A stretch of DNA of 64,000 nucleotides from Anaeromyxobacter dehalogenans 2CP-C (lineage in GTDB: Bacteria > Myxococcota > Myxococcia > Myxococcales > Anaeromyxobacteraceae): assembly GCF_000013385.1 (NCBI RefSeq), contig NC_007760.1:2791001-2855000 (forward strand), given 5' to 3'. The notes beneath the pieces are model-generated. The model worked only from the letters and a program-made list of their open reading frames with translations. It made no database searches and was not told where the DNA came from. Every line of letters starts with the position of its first letter. Position 1 is the stretch's first letter. Positions 1 to 37,748 of the stretch are shown here, piece after piece. The position numbers were made by a program, and so were the translations under genes.

Positions 1-524
1 TACACGCTCAGCGCCACCGGCACGCGCGCCTCGCCGGCGTCGGAGGAGATCACCACCGCGCCCTGGTAGATGCCCGAGCGCGCGCCGGCCGGCACGTGCA
101 CGTCCACCCAGACCGCGCGGCTCTCGCTCCCCACGTCGAACGGGAACGCGTTGCGCTTCTCGCCCACCACGTCGTCCACGTCGGGCACGAGCGCGTCGGG
201 CCAGCGGCCGGTGCCGCCGTCCACCGCGGACGGGCTGGTCACGTTCAGCGTCTCCACGCGGAACAGGCTGACGGAGAGCCCGTCGAGCCCCTCCACGCGC
301 GCGGTGACGCCCTTCGCCGGGCCGGTGACGACCACCTGGAACGCGGCGAACTCGTTGCGGGCCGCCGCGAGGTGCGCCTCGGTCTGGGGCCGCGCCTTCG
401 CGTCGGGCCGGATCTTCTCGGTGGCGCTCGCGACCCACGCCTCGGCGGCGGAGGCCGCCAGGGGCAGCAGGGAGAGCGCCAGCGCGACGGAGGCGGCGGT
501 GAAGGCTCGGCAGCGGGTCTTCAT
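1..524 (-). CDS. DUF4091-family exported protein, C-terminus cut by window edge
   Basis: Only the first 174 codons are in the window. The start is ATG at 524 with AAGGA eight bases upstream. Residues 1-27 form a Sec signal peptide (MKTRCR then a hydrophobic run, ending in ASAAEA). The mature N-terminus (WVASATEKIRPDAK, then AARNEFAAFQVVV) aligns by eye with the start of the complete DUF4091 protein at 34864-36558 (WAVASGLDKLRPADP, then AARGECESAQVAV), including the later WPDALVP / WPDPLVP and 'VWVDVHVP / IWVEVCVP' pieces. DUF4091 proteins have a beta-sandwich followed by a TIM-barrel resembling glycoside hydrolases; the catalytic barrel would lie outside the window. Function is unproven; periplasmic or secreted carbohydrate processing is an inference. 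Confidence 0.75.
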   Translation of the reverse strand, partial: MKTRCRAFTAASVALALSLLPLAASAAEAWVASATEKIRPDAKARPQTEAHLAAARNEFAAFQVVVTGPAKGVTARVEGLDGLSVSLFRVETLNVTSPSAVDGGTGRWPDALVPDVDDVVGEKRNAFPFDVGSESRAVWVDVHVPAGARSGIYQGAVVISSDAGEARVPVALSV

Positions 525-966
525 CGGGGTCGTCCTTTCCGGGTTCGTTGCAGCGCCCGGACAACGACAGGCCGACCGACCGAATTTCTCGCCCTCCGTG
601 GGGCAGGGGTGCGTGGAAGAGGGTGCAGGTCGGCCGCTCGCGCATGCCGTCCCACGTGCGTCGCCACTCCGACCGCACGCCCTCACCTGCGCCTACACCG
701 GGCTCGCTCGCTCGTCGTTTCGCTGCGGCCGAGCGGCGAGGCGCGCAGCGCCGGCCCCTCTCCCGCCGTGCGTGCGGGCGCCGCGCCGCCCGGCCTTGCC
801 CCGGGCGCAGCGCTGGACGTGGAGAAATTGGGGCGCGACGGCGTCGGGCACTGGCCGCCGCGCGCCGGAGGGCGCAGCGACCGCGCCCCGGAGGCGCGCT
901 CCCTCGACGCGCGGGATCGCGATCAGCGGCCGCGATCCCGCGGCCCGGTCCCACGCCCGTGCGCGA
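525..966. other. 442-bp gap without a recognisable gene
   Basis: The stretch separates the DUF4091 start (524, minus) from the stop of the minus-strand gene at 967-1536. It should hold the DUF4091 promoter; a short A+T-richer patch lies near 580-592 (GAATTTCTCG) but I cannot define convincing -35/-10 boxes. Open frames crossing it have arginine/alanine-rich translations typical of chance frames in very high G+C DNA. A strong hairpin at 910-942 is listed separately. Confidence 0.5.
910..942 (-). terminator. 12-bp-arm hairpin downstream of the 967-1536 gene
   Basis: Arms CGCGGGATCGCG (910-921) and CGCGATCCCGCG (931-942) are perfect inverted repeats around a 9-base loop, 24 bases past the stop at 967. 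There is no T-run, as is usual in this G+C range, so intrinsic termination is an inference from position and stem strength. Confidence 0.5.
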
Positions 967-1536: not shown

Positions 1537-1872
1537 AGCTGCCTCCCGGGAACGCGTCCTCGACCCGGAACCGGCCGGGTCCAGGGGGACGGTTAGCAAG
1601 CCGCCGGCCAGCGCCACCGCACCGCTGGCGCGCCGGCGCGCCGCCGCTCGCGCGGGCGGCCGTGGGAACGGCGCTTCCCATCCGGCGAACGGACCGCCAC
1701 CTCGGGAGGCGCCGCGCGCCTCGCCCACCTGCGCGCGCGCCTCCGGGGCGTGGCGCGGTGCGTGGCCGGGCCTTTGCTTTGCGGCACCGGGGACGGCGGG
1801 GCGGCACCGGGGTGGTCGCCCCGGCCCCCGGCCGCGCGGGCGGGGGGCCCGGAACGGAAGCACCGGGGCGGG
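1537..1872. other. 336-bp divergent intergenic region
   Basis: The region lies between the TTG start of the minus-strand signalling protein and the ATG of the heparinase-like gene, so it should carry both promoters. It is uniformly G+C-rich with GGCGCGCC-type self-complementary runs near 1628-1645. I see no convincing -35/-10 pair and no gene. Confidence 0.4.
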
Positions 1873-3981
1873 ATGGGCGCGATCGGCTACTACGGATACC
1901 TGGCGGCGCGCGTGCCGCCGCATCGGCTGCTCGCCACCGCGGCGCGCCGGGCGGTGCGGGGCGCCCGCAACCGCCTCGCGCCGCCGCTCGCGCCGTCGCC
2001 GAGGGGACTGCTCGAGGCGCTCGGCTGCGACGGGCCGGCGGGGCTCGCCGCCCTGCTGGCGCGGCCCCGTCCGGCGCGCCCGGCCTGGAGCCCGGAGGCG
2101 CTGCGGCGCGCGCTGGAGCGGCGGATCCCGGGCGAGGTCGAGCGGGCCCTGGGGCGGGCCGAGGCCGCCGCGGCCGGGCGCTTCGTGGTGTACGGGCGCG
2201 AGGTGGACGTGCGCCGCGCCGACGGCGGGACCGACTGGCAGCGCGATCCCGTCCACGGCGGCCGCTTCGACGGCCGCGCGCCCTCGGCGGCGCTGCCGCC
2301 CGCGCCGGGGCTCGATCCCAAGATGGCGTGGGCGCTCGGGCGCGGCGAGCACTGGGTCGCGCTCGCCTGCGGGGCGGTGCTCCACCCGCGCGCCGCCGGC
2401 GGGGACGCGCTGGCGGAGGCGCTCGCCGCCTCGGTGACCGACTTCGCCGCGCAGAACCCGGTCGGCCGCGGCGTCCACTGGACCTGCGCCATGGAGGCCG
2501 GGCTGCGCGCCTGGCACCTCGCCACCGCGCTGTGGGTGCTCGCCCTGCGCCGCGCGCCCGCGCCGGCGCTCGCGGCGGAGGCGGCGCGGCTGCTGGTCGC
2601 GAGCGGCCGCTTCGTGCTCGCGAACCTCGAGGACGGCGGCGCCGTCCCGAACAACCACCTGGTGTGCGACTGGCTCGGCCTGCTCGCCTGCGCCGAGGCG
2701 CTGCCGGAGTGGCCGGAGGCGCCGCGCTGGCGCGCGCTCGCGTCGGAGGGGCTGGCGCGGACGCTCGCGGAGCAGGTGCACGCGGAGGGCACCAGCTTCG
2801 AGGGCTCGGTGCCGTACCACCGCTTCTCGCTCGAGCTGTTCGCGGCGGGCTTCCTGCTGGCGCGCGCCGGCGGCCCGCCGCCCGCGCTGGCGTGGCGGCT
2901 CCACGCGATGTTCCGGGCCACCCGCGCGCTCGCCGCCGCCTCCGGCGACCTGCCGCAGCTCGGCGACAACGACTCCGGCCACGCGCTCGCGCTGCGCGCC
3001 CGCGGGCCCACCGAGGCGGGCTACCTCTGCGCGCTCGGCGCCGCGCTGTTCCGCGATCCGGCGCTGCTCCGCCCGGGCGCCCCGGCCGACGACGCCGTGG
3101 AGGCCGCGTGGCTGCTCGGGCCGGAGGCGCTCGACTGGCTCGGCCGCGCCCGGCCCGGCCCGCCGCCGGGCAGCGTCTCCTTCCCGGCGGCCGGCGTGCA
3201 CGTGCTCCGCCGCGGCGCGCTGGAGGCGTTCGTCTCCTGCGGCCCGCACGGCCAGCGCGGCGTCGGCGGGCACGACCACAACGACAAGCTCTCCTTCGAG
3301 CTGCGCGCCGCGGGCGCGCTGGCGGTGTGCGACCCGGGCATGCCGGTGTACGGCCGCGCGCCCGAGGTGCGGGACGCGTTCCGGTCCACCCGCGCGCACG
3401 CGACGGTGACGGTGGACGGCCTGGAGCAGTCGCCCATCCCGCCCGGCCGGCTGTTCGCGCTGCCCGACGCGGCCGGCGCGCGGCTGCTCGCGTTCGCGCC
3501 CGGCGGCGAGGCGGAGCGGCTGGCGGGCGAGCACCGCGGCTTCGTCGCGCGCGCGGGCGTGGTCCACCGGCGCGAGCTGGCGCTCGCCGGCGCGGGGCTG
3601 GTCGTGGTCGATCGCCTGGCGGGCCGCGGCACGCACGCGGTGGAGCTGCGCTGGCCGCTCGCGCACCCCGCGCCGCGCCTGCGCGAGGCGAGCGCCGCCG
3701 AGGCCGCCGCGCTCGCGCGCCTCGCCCGGCTGGCGCGCCTGCGCCGGCCCGCGGATCCGTCGCGCGTGGTGGAGGTGCCGCTCGGCCCGGCCGGCCACCT
3801 CCTCGTCGCCTTCTCGGCGCCGGCGGGCCTCGCGCCCGAGCTGGCGCCCTCGCTGCGCTCGCCGGGCTACGGCGAGCTCGTCCCCGCGTCCGTCGCGACG
3901 CTGGCCGGCCCGCTGGCCTGCCCCGCCGCGCTCGCCACGCTGTTCCTCCACGTCGCTGCCGAAGGGAGCCACCCCAGATGA
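1873..3981 (+). CDS. Heparinase II/III-like polysaccharide lyase family protein
   Basis: A 702-residue protein. The start is ATG at 1873, where the protein-like sequence MGAIGYYGYLAARVPPHRLL begins; upstream in-frame codons look non-coding. Residues about 1-370 form the alpha-toroid with the family pattern 'NPVGRGVHWTCAMEAGLRAW' near 195-215 and a GDNDSGHAL motif near 360. The C-terminal half is the beta-sandwich with GGHDHNDKLSFEL (about 470) and FRSTRAHATV, the Heparinase II/III C-terminal signature. No signal peptide is evident, as in relatives encoded in exopolysaccharide loci. The stop overlaps the next start (ATGA at 3978-3981), so it is translationally coupled to a UDP-sugar dehydrogenase. 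A role in making, trimming or turning over a uronate-containing polysaccharide is inferred from that pairing. Confidence 0.85.
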   Translation: MGAIGYYGYLAARVPPHRLLATAARRAVRGARNRLAPPLAPSPRGLLEALGCDGPAGLAALLARPRPARPAWSPEALRRALERRIPGEVERALGRAEAAAAGRFVVYGREVDVRRADGGTDWQRDPVHGGRFDGRAPSAALPPAPGLDPKMAWALGRGEHWVALACGAVLHPRAAGGDALAEALAASVTDFAAQNPVGRGVHWTCAMEAGLRAWHLATALWVLALRRAPAPALAAEAARLLVASGRFVLANLEDGGAVPNNHLVCDWLGLLACAEALPEWPEAPRWRALASEGLARTLAEQVHAEGTSFEGSVPYHRFSLELFAAGFLLARAGGPPPALAWRLHAMFRATRALAAASGDLPQLGDNDSGHALALRARGPTEAGYLCALGAALFRDPALLRPGAPADDAVEAAWLLGPEALDWLGRARPGPPPGSVSFPAAGVHVLRRGALEAFVSCGPHGQRGVGGHDHNDKLSFELRAAGALAVCDPGMPVYGRAPEVRDAFRSTRAHATVTVDGLEQSPIPPGRLFALPDAAGARLLAFAPGGEAERLAGEHRGFVARAGVVHRRELALAGAGLVVVDRLAGRGTHAVELRWPLAHPAPRLREASAAEAAALARLARLARLRRPADPSRVVEVPLGPAGHLLVAFSAPAGLAPELAPSLRSPGYGELVPASVATLAGPLACPAALATLFLHVAAEGSHPR

Positions 3982-33884: not shown

Positions 33885-33910
33885 GTGTCGGCCGCGCGAC
33901 ACGCCTGTCG
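33885..33910 (+). promoter_or_regulatory. Candidate enhancer-binding-protein sites (TGTCG array)
   Basis: GTGTCG (33885-33890), six bases, CGACAC (33897-33902), four bases, TGTCG (33906-33910): three half-sites in alternating orientation, forming two overlapping inverted repeats about 75 bases upstream of the -24 element. Distance and symmetry fit an upstream activating sequence for a sigma-54 activator. Confidence 0.5.
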
Positions 33911-33975
33911 CGCTCCCGCATCAGTCGTTGCGCGGCGGCCTTCGAATCCCGAACAATGTCCGGCCGGCGCGGAGG

Positions 33976-33991
33976 TGGCACCGGCCTTGCT
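33976..33991 (+). promoter_or_regulatory. Sigma-54 promoter for the DUF3108-DUF4091-DUF3108 cluster
   Basis: TGGCAC (33976-33981), five bases, TTGCT (33987-33991): an exact match to the RpoN -24/-12 consensus TGGCAC-N5-TTGCW, with transcription expected near 34003, 60 bases before the DUF3108 start. Confidence 0.75.
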
Positions 33992-34062
33992 CTATCTCGG
34001 GGTGACCGCGCACCGCTTCGCGCGCGGCGTGGCTCGGAAGAAGCGACTGGAGATCCGCCGCA

Positions 34063-34812
34063 ATGACCAAGACCTGGACCCTCGCCCTCGCCGCCCTCCT
34101 CGCCGCCGTCCCCGCCTCGCGCGCCGACGCCTTCGCGCCGGGCGAGGAGACGGTGTTCAGCGTGCGGTACCTGAACCTCCCCACGGGTGAGGGGCGCATC
34201 GTGGTCGGTCAGCCGGAGGGCGACGTGTGGCCGGTGATCTTCCAGGCCAAGACCGAGGGCGTGGCGGGGTTCATCGACATCCGCGAGCACCTGGTCTCGT
34301 ACTGGGACTCCTCGGCCCGGATGAGCCGCGGCTCCGATCTGAAGGCCTACGAGGTCGGCGACTACCACGTGGACTCGGCGCGCTTCGACCGGGCGAACGG
34401 GCAGGCGACGGTGGTCGTGCAGCGGAAGGGGAAGCGCAAGGAGAAGACCTTCCCGATCGCGGCCGACGCGCACGACCTGACCAGCGCGTTCATGTGGATC
34501 CGGCTGCAGCCGCTGACCATGGGGCACCGGTACGAGCTGCCGGTCGTCTCCGGGTCGAAGCAGTTCACCCTCGTGGCCGAGGTGGTGGGCCAGGAGCGCA
34601 TCGAGACGCCGGCCGGGACGTTCCCCACGCTGAAGGTGAAGGTCCGCACCGCGCTCGAGGGGAAGTTCTCGACCAGCCGCGACTCGTACATGTGGCTCTC
34701 CGACGACCCGCGCCACATCCTGGTCCGCGCCTCCGCCGACTTCGCGGTGGGCAGCATCGTCGCGACGCTGAAGAGCTACCGGCCCGGCGGCGAGGTGGCG
34801 GCGGTCCGCTGA
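34063..34812 (+). CDS. DUF3108-domain exported protein (first copy)
   Basis: A 249-residue protein with a signal peptide (MTKTWTLALAALLAAVPASRADA, residues 1-23). The rest is a beta-rich DUF3108 domain: PGEETVFSVRYLNLPTGEG at the start, HLVSYWDSSARMSRGSDLKAY, then ETPAGTFPTLKVKVRTALEG and LSDDPRHILVRASADFAVGSI. The family is predicted periplasmic and of unknown function. First gene after the sigma-54 promoter; 51 bases separate it from the DUF4091 gene. It is only distantly similar to the second DUF3108 copy at 36587. Confidence 0.85.
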   Translation: MTKTWTLALAALLAAVPASRADAFAPGEETVFSVRYLNLPTGEGRIVVGQPEGDVWPVIFQAKTEGVAGFIDIREHLVSYWDSSARMSRGSDLKAYEVGDYHVDSARFDRANGQATVVVQRKGKRKEKTFPIAADAHDLTSAFMWIRLQPLTMGHRYELPVVSGSKQFTLVAEVVGQERIETPAGTFPTLKVKVRTALEGKFSTSRDSYMWLSDDPRHILVRASADFAVGSIVATLKSYRPGGEVAAVR

Positions 34813-34863
34813 GGACCGCCCTGCCGGGCGGCGCACGCGCGGGGTGAGCCCGCGCGCTCGCTT

Positions 34864-36558
34864 GTGCGGGCGGACCCGGGCGACCACCTTCGCGGCGTGA
34901 CCGCCCCCGCGCTCCTGCTCGCCCTCCTCGCGCTCGCCCGCCCCGGCCCGGTCCCCCGGGCCCCGGCGGAGCCGGCGCTCGAGTGGGCCGTGGCGAGCGG
35001 CCTCGACAAGCTCCGGCCCGCCGATCCGCTCCCCGCCGCCCGCGCGGTGGACCTGGTGGCGGCGCGCGGGGAGTGCGAGTCGGCGCAGGTGGCGGTGCGT
35101 CCCCGCGGCGCCGCGCTCGCGCTCGGCGCCGAGGCCGCGCCGCTCTCCCCCGAGGCGCGCCGCCGCGGGCGGCGGATCCCGGTCGCGCTGTACCGGGTGG
35201 CGACGGTGCGCCTGGCGCGCCCGAGCGGACCGGACGGCGCCGCCGGCGAGTGGCCGGACCCGCTCGTGCCGGTGCGCGACGCCTGGTTCCGCGAGGCGCG
35301 CCGCGCGTTCCCGGTGGAGGTCGCGGCGGGCCGCCTCCAGGCGATCTGGGTGGAGGTGTGCGTCCCCCACGACGCCGCGCCCGGCGCGTACGCGGGCGTG
35401 GTGCGGCTCTCGGCGGGCGGCCGGCGCCTCGCCGAGGTCCCGGTGCGGCTGCGGGTGTGGCCGTTCGCGATCCCGCGCACCGGCACCTTCGCCGCGCCGT
35501 TCGGCCTCTCCACGCGGCTCGGCACCCGCGCGCTGGGCGTGCCGGACGATCCCGAGGTGGCGCGCGCGCTCGCCGCGGCCGCGCTGCGGCACCGCGTGAC
35601 GCCGTTCACGCTCTCGGCCGACCCGCCCGACGGCACGTGCACGGCGGGGCGCTGCGCGCTCGACTGGTCGCGCTACGACGCGGAGGTCGGGCCGGTGCTG
35701 GACGGGACGCTGGTGCCCGGCGTGCGCGGCGCGTTCGCCGAGGTGCGCATCGCCGGGCGGGTCTGGGACGGCCCGGAGGCGGACCTCGCCGCCACGCTCC
35801 GCGCGTGGCGGGCGCACTTCGAGGCGCGCGGCTGGGCGGACCGGCTCTGGCTCTACACGCTCGACGAGCCGCGGCCGGAGCAGCTTCCCGAGCTGGCGCG
35901 CCGGGCGCGGCTCGCCCGCGCCGCCGGCATCCGCGTGTTCGCCACCACGCTGCCCCAGCCGGCGCTGGACGGGCTGGTGGACGCCTACGCGCCGGTGCTG
36001 AACGCGCTGCCGGAGGGGCGCGCGCCGCCGCGCGTGGCGTTCTCCTACGCGTCCTGCATGTCGCACGGGTGCGCGGAGCTGCCCGGGGGCGGCCCGCTCC
36101 GCGCGGAGATGCTCCGCACGTTCGCCGGCTGGCCGGGCTACGAGATCGACCGGCCCGGCGCGGCCGCGCGCGCGGTGGCGTGGCTCGGCTGGCGGCGCGG
36201 CCTCTCCGGCGAGCTCTACTACGATATGCTCCAGGCCTGGCGAGGCGACCCTTGGACCGACGTGCGCGCGTTCGCGGGGAATGGCGACGGGACGCTGCTC
36301 TACCCGGGGAGGCCGGCCGAGCTCGGCGGGACGCGGCCGTTCCCGGTGGAGTCGATCCGGCTCAAGATCGTGCGCGACGCCCTGGAGGACGTGGAGCTCC
36401 TGCGGCTCGCCGCCGCCGCGGGCCTCGGCGGCCTGGCCGCCGCGACGGCGGAGGGGCTGGTGCCGGCGCCGCGCGGGTGGGAGCGCGACCCTGCCCGCTG
36501 GCTCGCGGCCCGGCGCCGGCTGGGGGACGCGCTCGCCCGGCGCCTCGCGACCCGCTGA
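34864..36558 (+). CDS. DUF4091-family exported glycoside-hydrolase-like protein
   Basis: A 564-residue protein from GTG 34864; GTG 34897 is an alternative, nearer the hydrophobic segment (APALLLALLALARPGP). Neither has a clear ribosome-binding site. Residues about 40-210 form an N-terminal beta-sandwich; the second half resembles a TIM barrel, with LWLYTLDEPRPEQ (about 330; the D-E-P is family-typical), then GLSGELYYDMLQAW and the DUF4091 signature GDGTLLYPG ... PVESIRLKIVRDALEDVELL. A paralogue is cut by the left window edge. Flanked by two DUF3108 genes (51 and 28 bp). Likely acts on a carbohydrate polymer in the envelope; substrate unknown. Confidence 0.82.
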   Translation: MRADPGDHLRGVTAPALLLALLALARPGPVPRAPAEPALEWAVASGLDKLRPADPLPAARAVDLVAARGECESAQVAVRPRGAALALGAEAAPLSPEARRRGRRIPVALYRVATVRLARPSGPDGAAGEWPDPLVPVRDAWFREARRAFPVEVAAGRLQAIWVEVCVPHDAAPGAYAGVVRLSAGGRRLAEVPVRLRVWPFAIPRTGTFAAPFGLSTRLGTRALGVPDDPEVARALAAAALRHRVTPFTLSADPPDGTCTAGRCALDWSRYDAEVGPVLDGTLVPGVRGAFAEVRIAGRVWDGPEADLAATLRAWRAHFEARGWADRLWLYTLDEPRPEQLPELARRARLARAAGIRVFATTLPQPALDGLVDAYAPVLNALPEGRAPPRVAFSYASCMSHGCAELPGGGPLRAEMLRTFAGWPGYEIDRPGAAARAVAWLGWRRGLSGELYYDMLQAWRGDPWTDVRAFAGNGDGTLLYPGRPAELGGTRPFPVESIRLKIVRDALEDVELLRLAAAAGLGGLAAATAEGLVPAPRGWERDPARWLAARRRLGDALARRLATR

Positions 36559-36586
36559 GCCCCGGCCCGCGCGCGGGGCGGCGCAG

Positions 36587-37375
36587 ATGACCTCCGCCGC
36601 GCTGCTCGCGCTCGCCCTGCTCGCCCCCTCCGCCACGCCGGCCGCCCCGGCCTGTGGCCCGCCGCCGCTCGCCGCGGGGGCGCGCCCCTGGGCGCCGGGC
36701 GAGACGCTCACGTTCGACCTCGACCTGCTCGGCATGGTGCGCGCCGGCACGCTCCAGCTCTCGGTGGAGCGCCCCATGTCCGGCGGGCGCGTCGTCCCGC
36801 TGCGCGCCCGCGCGCGCACCGACGCCTCGCTCGCCGCGCTCAAGAACGTCACCGCGGTGGGGCTCTCGTGGGTGGACGCGGACACGCTCCTGCCCGAGCG
36901 GTACCGCGACGAGGCGCTGGAGAACGGCGTCCGCAAGGTGAGCGACACCCGGCTCGCGCCGCCGGGCGGCGAGGTGGTGGTCGCGTACCGCTACGGCGAC
37001 CGCGAAGGGAAGACCGCGTACGCGCGCCAGGGCCACGTGCTCGACGCGCTGTCGGCGGTGTACCTGCTGCGCGCGGCGCGCCTCGCGCCCGGGGAGGCGT
37101 TCTGCTTCGACCTGGTCGCGAACCGGCGCTTCTGGCGCCTGGAGGGGACGGTCGCGCGGAAGATCGAGCCGGTGGACACGCCCGCCGGCCGGTTCCAGAC
37201 GCTGCGCGTGGACGCGGTGGCGCGCCGCGCGGACGACCCGGACGCGCGGGCGCGCCCGCTGCACCTGTGGTTCACGAACGACCGGCGCCGCCTGCTGGTG
37301 GCGGCGGTGAGCGAGATCGACCTCGGGCCGGTGCGCGCGATGCTGGCGAGCGTCCACGGCGCGCGCGCGCCCTGA
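36587..37375 (+). CDS. DUF3108-domain exported protein (second copy)
   Basis: A 262-residue protein with a signal peptide (MTSAALLALALLAPSATPAAP). DUF3108 features: PGETLTFDLDLLGMVRAGTL at the start of the mature part, the 'ERYRDEALENGVRKVSDTRL' middle, DTPAGRFQTLRVDAVARR and FTNDRRRLLVAAVSEIDLGPV near the end. It shares with the first copy the TPAG.F.TL.V strand and the (N/D)D.R..LV motif, so the two are paralogues that diverged long ago. 28 bases after the DUF4091 stop; converges on the 37392 gene 16 bases away. Confidence 0.83.
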   Translation: MTSAALLALALLAPSATPAAPACGPPPLAAGARPWAPGETLTFDLDLLGMVRAGTLQLSVERPMSGGRVVPLRARARTDASLAALKNVTAVGLSWVDADTLLPERYRDEALENGVRKVSDTRLAPPGGEVVVAYRYGDREGKTAYARQGHVLDALSAVYLLRAARLAPGEAFCFDLVANRRFWRLEGTVARKIEPVDTPAGRFQTLRVDAVARRADDPDARARPLHLWFTNDRRRLLVAAVSEIDLGPVRAMLASVHGARAP

Positions 37376-37391: not shown

Positions 37392-37748
37392 TCACATGCG
37401 CGCGGCGACCTGCGCCAGCCGGCGGCGCACGCTCCCGAGCACGCCGGACAGGTAGTCGAGCCGCTCGGTGGGCGCCCCGCCCAGCGCGAGCGACAGCAGG
37501 CGCTGCTGGCTCGGCTCGCCGTCGGAGAGCGCCGCCTCGACGTTCGCCACGTACGCCGCCACCGCGGAGAGCGCCGCGCGCGCCTCGCGCAGGTCGTCCT
37601 CGAGGAAGTCGAGCACCACGTGCTCGCGCGCGGTGGAGCCGGCCAGGCGCCGGCGGAGCGCGTCCACGGCGCCCGGCGCGTCGGGGGAGACCTCGACGGC
37701 CTCGGGCTCCAGCGACTCGGCGAGGGCGACGGCGGGCAGGCGGCTCAT
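37392..37748 (-). CDS. Small helical protein coupled to a winged-helix protein
   Basis: A 118-residue protein, almost all helix, acidic in the first half (SLEPEAVEVSPDAPGAVDAL), with HVVLDFLEDDLREARAALSA and RLDYLSGVLGSVRRRLAQVA. No recognised domain. It begins in an ATGA overlap (37745-37748) with the upstream winged-helix gene, so the two products are probably partners. Confidence 0.6.
   Translation of the reverse strand: MSRLPAVALAESLEPEAVEVSPDAPGAVDALRRRLAGSTAREHVVLDFLEDDLREARAALSAVAAYVANVEAALSDGEPSQQRLLSLALGGAPTERLDYLSGVLGSVRRRLAQVAARM

Follow-up and report, generated by a model that had tools for sequence, protein, structure and literature searches.

A conserved operon with two DUF3108 genes and a GH123-type hydrolase gene in Anaeromyxobacter and other myxobacteria

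We analysed a window of 64,000 nucleotides of Anaeromyxobacter dehalogenans 2CP-C (bases 2,791,001-2,855,000 of a single contig of 5,013,479 bases; positions below are those of the window unless the genome is named). It contains an operon of three genes, here called A, B and C, which is real, is made of known kinds of parts and is apparently undescribed, as none of the open papers found by full-text searches for DUF3108 and DUF4091 deals with the arrangement. Genes A and C encode exported DUF3108 proteins that are predicted to resemble EipB and LolA, and gene B encodes an exported glycoside hydrolase of the GH123 type (formerly DUF4091). Our reading, which we hold tentatively and at a little short of an even chance, is that of a myxobacterial envelope module, induced by an activator in the Anaeromyxobacteraceae, in which a glycan or glycolipid of the envelope would be handled by A and C and trimmed by B. 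DUF3108 is a widespread exported family without a known role, and the operon supplies a testable setting for it: the family gains a relative in fold whose envelope phenotype is known, a gene fixed beside it whose activity can be predicted, and a conserved promoter of an inducible type. Because the operon also occurs in species open to genetic work, Myxococcus xanthus among them, experiments can address directly both what DUF3108 does and which substrate the oligosaccharide-releasing GH123 enzymes act on in nature.

Gene order and its conservation

Genes A (34063-34812, 249 amino acids), B (34864-36558, 564 amino acids) and C (36587-37375, 262 amino acids) all lie on the plus strand with gaps of 51 bp (A-B) and 28 bp (B-C), as had been described in an earlier note made from the letters of this DNA, and the three open reading frames were confirmed. 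Gene B has a GTG start, for which the GTG at 34897 is as likely as that at 34864. The unit is taken to comprise three genes because the next open reading frame downstream is convergent, ending at 37392; no terminator-like site was found in the region, compared with 0.4 expected in shuffled sequences. The N-termini were inspected, and going by signal peptides read by eye A, B and C are predicted to be exported proteins.

An arrangement found only in this genome is ruled out. When DUF3108 (D) and DUF4091 (E) matches were placed together in a sample of 60 relatives, the order D-E-D was present in 20 genomes, E-D in 13 and D-D in nine, and one D-E unit was interrupted by a contig end. Separate searches with A, B and C placed A always as the first gene and C always as the last. 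Named carriers of A-B-C include M. xanthus, other Myxococcus, Corallococcus, Pyxidicoccus, Archangium, Hyalangium and Citreicoccus. Another 97 genomes drawn across the phylum yielded more Myxococcaceae with A-B-C, A and C only in three genomes (G109, G111 and G125), and no triad outside the order. Anaeromyxobacter and M. xanthus also have common surroundings, consisting of mreC/mreD, a PpiD/SurA-like gene, Maf, YggS, A-B-C and DUF507. With both the order and the surroundings kept, the unit is old and vertically inherited. A-C pairs without B are found in several genera of Anaeromyxobacteraceae and in Myxococcaceae, and B-C units without A also occur, which makes C the common member.

The middle place can be taken by other genes. 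In G034 (L085, G034:C100, about 78930-80500, minus strand) a 524-amino-acid protein without a Pfam match is encoded between A and C in the place of B; this gene is rare, with one weak relative, at G027:C14 beside a B fragment, among 40 genomes of the order. In a genome of another order of the same class (G105; L195, G105:C5 44000-56000) the spot between A and C is filled by a gene for a tetratricopeptide repeat (TPR)-like protein, so the two DUF3108 genes can enclose different genes.

The predicted hydrolase and the two DUF3108 proteins

Gene B matches PF13320, a Pfam family previously named DUF4091 and now GH123_cat, with 28.4 bits (cut-off 23.1), in agreement with the earlier description of a signal-bearing, glycoside-hydrolase-like DUF4091 protein. 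It had also been stated that no family in the operon has an assigned role, which is correct for DUF3108 and outdated for DUF4091: Sumida and colleagues demonstrated with structures, mutants and assays that DUF4091-domain proteins are beta-N-acetylgalactosaminidases (beta-NGAs) or beta-hexosaminidases, that is GH123-type hydrolases of beta-linked N-acetylgalactosamine (GalNAc) or N-acetylhexosamine (HexNAc) (PMC11087588). The closest solved relative of gene B is PDB 8k2f (E 3.3e-21 by single sequence and 7.5e-44 by profile), the Group 1 oligosaccharide-releasing beta-NGA NgaCa, and exopolysaccharides were suggested by its authors as substrates for enzymes of this type (PMC11087588). Nine residues strictly conserved in characterised beta-NGAs were taken from the same paper and gene B was aligned to the solved chains; eight of them are retained (D132, W162, D334, E335, Y395, G449, Y480 and R499). 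The catalytic pair D334-E335 aligns with the DE of 8k2j and is invariant across 111 aligned relatives, and the position of W162 (W115) varies in Myxococcaceae B proteins. Gene B is therefore placed in the GH123_cat sequence family and not among proven beta-NGAs, since only eight of the nine residues are kept; its product very likely hydrolyses HexNAc linkages, as predicted from these residues. B resembles NgaCa in sequence family across both end regions, in the DE motif and in the eight residues, and differs in a Tyr for W431, the operonic cysteines C71/C166, a YxSCxSHGC motif and its myxobacterial operon with DUF3108. The YxSCxSHGC motif lies by the active-site tyrosine (gene B residues 395-403), and none of the 111 aligned relatives, operonic and non-operonic alike, varies at either of its cysteines; in 8k2j the second cysteine is absent from the corresponding stretch.

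A tree of 90 B-like sequences, made by a quick method and with Shimodaira-Hasegawa-like approximate likelihood ratio test (SH-aLRT) support only, also sets the operonic B proteins apart: all 49 of them share one branch with four others (SH-aLRT 99). Outside this branch are stand-alone proteins of Anaeromyxobacter, Acidobacteria and Nitrospirota. Of the 49 operonic B proteins 48 have both C71 and C166, vs 4 of the 41 other B-like proteins. The four non-operonic members of the branch share this cysteine signature; L160 lies at the end of a contig, and L113, L123 and L138 each have an A-like gene on the opposite strand nearby. Judged by this distribution, C71/C166 is a signature of the operonic enzyme, and the two cysteines probably form a disulfide.

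Proteins A and C match PF11306 (DUF3108, cut-off 26) with 148 bits (E 5.8e-43) and 102 bits (E 7.3e-29), respectively. They are the sole two DUF3108 proteins in the genome and are paralogous at about 28% identity, which together with the signal peptides upholds the earlier view of the first and third genes as exported DUF3108 paralogues. An NCBIfam search gave no match, and no relatives of A were found in a plasmid collection. AlphaFold2 models were built from the window and named-genome sequences. The model of A has a predicted local distance difference test score (pLDDT) of 86.6 and a predicted template modelling score (pTM) of 0.83; that of C has a pLDDT of 89.5 and a pTM of 0.85. The top solved match of both models is Brucella EipB (6ntr; Z 16.4 for A and 16.6 for C over about 212 residues, root mean square deviation 3.4 A), which ties with one eukaryotic axonemal chain as best fold match, the others being well below: DUF1089 and the YmcC-like 3fzx/4fvs at Z 10-11, and LolA, RseB and relatives at Z of about 7-9. 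As modelled, A and C are predicted to be beta-spiral proteins of the EipB/LolA class. Familiar members of the LolA/LprG/LppX fold class bind lipids or acylated molecules. The link to EipB is one of fold only, no Pfam match to DUF1849 (the EipB family) being found up to E 1.

Like EipB of Brucella abortus, A and C are predicted to be exported and to be beta-spiral over nearly their whole length. They differ from it in identity (about 10%), in Pfam family and in genetic setting, as EipB is a single gene near the Rhizobiales bamA/lpx genes and DUF3108 is represented here by two paralogues flanking a hydrolase gene. EipB is described as periplasmic and its loss as weakening the Brucella envelope, with sensitivity to envelope-disrupting compounds (PMC10787603).

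Two other assignments were considered. C23 and C173 are invariant in the C proteins, and C as a lipoprotein attached via C23 is unlikely, because in Myxococcaceae a clear signal-peptidase I site precedes this Cys by about 25 residues and because C173 is just as invariant; no lipobox was seen by eye on A or C. A relationship of A to LppX of Mycobacterium was rejected, since a PDB sequence match (E 0.015) fell to E 1.2 by profile.

The promoter region

A predicted sigma-54 (RpoN) -24/-12 promoter of exact consensus (TGGCACCGGCCTTGCT, 33976-33991, plus strand) precedes gene A, with an inferred transcription start near 34001; the exact site TGGCACCGGCCTTGC takes up 33976-33990 and lies 88 bases before A. 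The exact TGGCAC-N5-TTGC occurs nine times in the 5.0-Mb genome vs once for the reversed control. The -24/-12 site is retained before A in seven out of seven Anaeromyxobacter genomes that have A beside B or C, and is present in relaxed form in other Anaeromyxobacteraceae genera. About 65 bp upstream of it is a palindrome, CGACA-N4-TGTCG, which forms a putative enhancer (GCGACACGCCTGTCGC, 33896-33911, plus strand) with its centre about 97 bp upstream of the inferred transcription start. The palindrome is a putative activator site, located where such a site is expected. GCGACANNNNTGTCGC has a single copy in the genome; as about half a copy (0.5, estimated from base composition) is expected by chance, the single copy by itself means little and a private activator is no more than a possibility.

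The two elements were then combined into one pattern (CGACA-N4-TGTCK, 50-80 bases, TGGCNY-N5-TTGC) and 24 genomes of the family were scanned. Exactly one match was found in each of nine genomes, always before A, and the reversed control gave none. The combined element is kept in G006, G021 and G023, where B is missing beside A and C. The full motifs measure 82, 83, 94, 94, 94, 94, 104, 106 and 106 bp, and these steps of approximately whole helical turns are suggestive of an activator facing the polymerase, for which they would be expected. Comparison of seven genomes shows 21 invariant positions out of 23 within the motif and 26 out of 151 around it (Fisher p about 4e-12, indicative only since the genomes are related). 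This phylogenetic footprint rejects a chance RpoN site, and together with the genome count confirms the consensus RpoN promoter sequence that had been noted earlier. The proposal of an inducible sigma-54 system is strengthened by the footprint and the putative enhancer for part of the Anaeromyxobacteraceae only: Myxococcaceae and several sister genera have no such control, which is therefore not a defining feature of the module and was rejected as a general trait of it. No sigma-54 activator motif was found within the window, and a literature search found no study of sigma-54 in Anaeromyxobacter. Elsewhere, the composite motif of palindrome and -24/-12 pattern is found ahead of a TolC-like outer membrane efflux gene in a relative that belongs to a different family of the order (G030:C20, L192) and ahead of an unrelated gene in G024; each is a single occurrence without support.

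Proposed working and alternative readings

In the envelope module that we propose, a sigma-54 activator would bind the palindrome and induce the operon under an envelope-related signal, the operon being perhaps its only such target. A and C, in the periplasm or at the outer membrane, would bind or pass on a glycolipid, a glycan or an acylated envelope component, a role modelled on the LolA, LprG and GfcB-like folds. On the surface polysaccharide of the cell itself B would act by substrate-assisted catalysis, cutting beta-HexNAc (probably GalNAc) linkages and trimming or clearing the chains that A and C handle, with the A-C pair as the core and B as a lineage-stable enzyme between. Two thirds of the carbohydrate in the M. 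xanthus spore coat is GalNAc (PMC2875238), a sugar also found in M. xanthus vesicles (PMC4880591), so that a self-made substrate is available at least in this species. The earlier idea of an action on an envelope or extracellular polysaccharide is rated plausible. Its further suggestion, that the DUF3108 pair serves merely as partners of the enzyme, is probably not right, since A and C are still found together, behind the same sigma-54/palindrome element, at loci that lack the enzyme gene. The boldest form of the proposal, a new envelope glycan-handling system in which two EipB-like carriers would pass a glycoconjugate by a trimming GH123-type hydrolase, under a sigma-54 activator that in Anaeromyxobacter has this operon as its sole such target, is in our view doubtful.

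Several observations weigh against the envelope module. Fold likeness is by itself no proof of function. The ninth conserved residue, the substrate-contacting W431 of NgaLy, is Y453 in gene B, and its position is Phe or Tyr in all operonic B proteins but one (111 relatives aligned), so the specificity or substrate pocket of B may differ. The neighbours mreC, the PpiD/SurA-like gene, Maf, YggS and DUF507 are not polysaccharide genes. B is separable, since A-C pairs without it retain the promoter and B-C units without A exist, and no sigma-54 element is found before A in G010, G011, G015, G016 and Myxococcaceae.

Alternatively, A and C could be carriers of lipoproteins or outer-membrane proteins, like LolA, LolB or EipB, and B a housekeeping glycosidase unrelated to them, on the same transcript only by position. 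Such an explanation, which we consider unlikely, accords with the same promoter before A-C pairs that lack B (G006, G021 and G023), with the 524-amino-acid and TPR-like proteins that occur in the middle place, with EipB and LolA among the nearest folds and with a PpiD/SurA-like chaperone gene close to the operon. It does not account well for a B that stays beside C through most of the order, that forms one operonic clade with its own cysteine pair and that lasts in B-C units where A has been lost.

A degradative operon used in predation, in which secreted B would digest foreign GalNAc-rich glycans as food and A and C would be surface glycan-binding proteins, is improbable. Many myxobacteria are predators. 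GH123 enzymes elsewhere take part in degrading and using glycans (PMC11087588); however, no transporter, sugar catabolism or TonB-dependent genes are in or beside the operon, and A and C are like periplasmic carriers and not like carbohydrate-binding modules. The operon is also kept in Anaeromyxobacter. This genus is an anaerobic respirer which is not known to be a predator.

The group 4 capsule operon protein YmcC/GfcB shares with A and C a broad fold class and a link to surface polysaccharide, and differs as a lipoprotein with GfcC and GfcD as partners, none of which are in the A/C locus. That A or C is a GfcB/YjbF-type helper (YmcC fold) of a Gfc/Yjb-like capsule export, aiding polysaccharide through the outer membrane, is very improbable: DUF3108 was earlier assigned the YmcC fold (3FZX; PMC4364669), 3fzx (Z about 11) and GfcB 2in5 (Z about 8-9) are among the fold matches, and the LolA-like GfcB belongs to a capsule-linked outer-membrane complex and works with the barrel GfcD (PMC8592465), but neither a GfcC or GfcD partner gene in the operon or its conserved neighbourhood nor a lipobox was seen, and EipB is a far better fold match.

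The genome has other DUF4091 copies. The second copy reported earlier at the left edge of the window is real (genome 2789899-2791464, minus strand) and a third is at 4.69 Mb. The left-edge GH123-type protein begins within the window (1-686, minus strand) and ends at genome position 2789899; it has Phe and His where the operonic B has its two cysteines, and it was not in the B tree. Equivalence of all the copies was rejected, since the 4.69-Mb copy falls in the stand-alone clade and the left-edge copy is without both cysteines. Near the latter are a heparinase II/III-like gene (1750-3978) and a nucleotide-sugar dehydrogenase-like open reading frame, and these neighbours suggest that the left-edge copy has a polysaccharide locus of its own.

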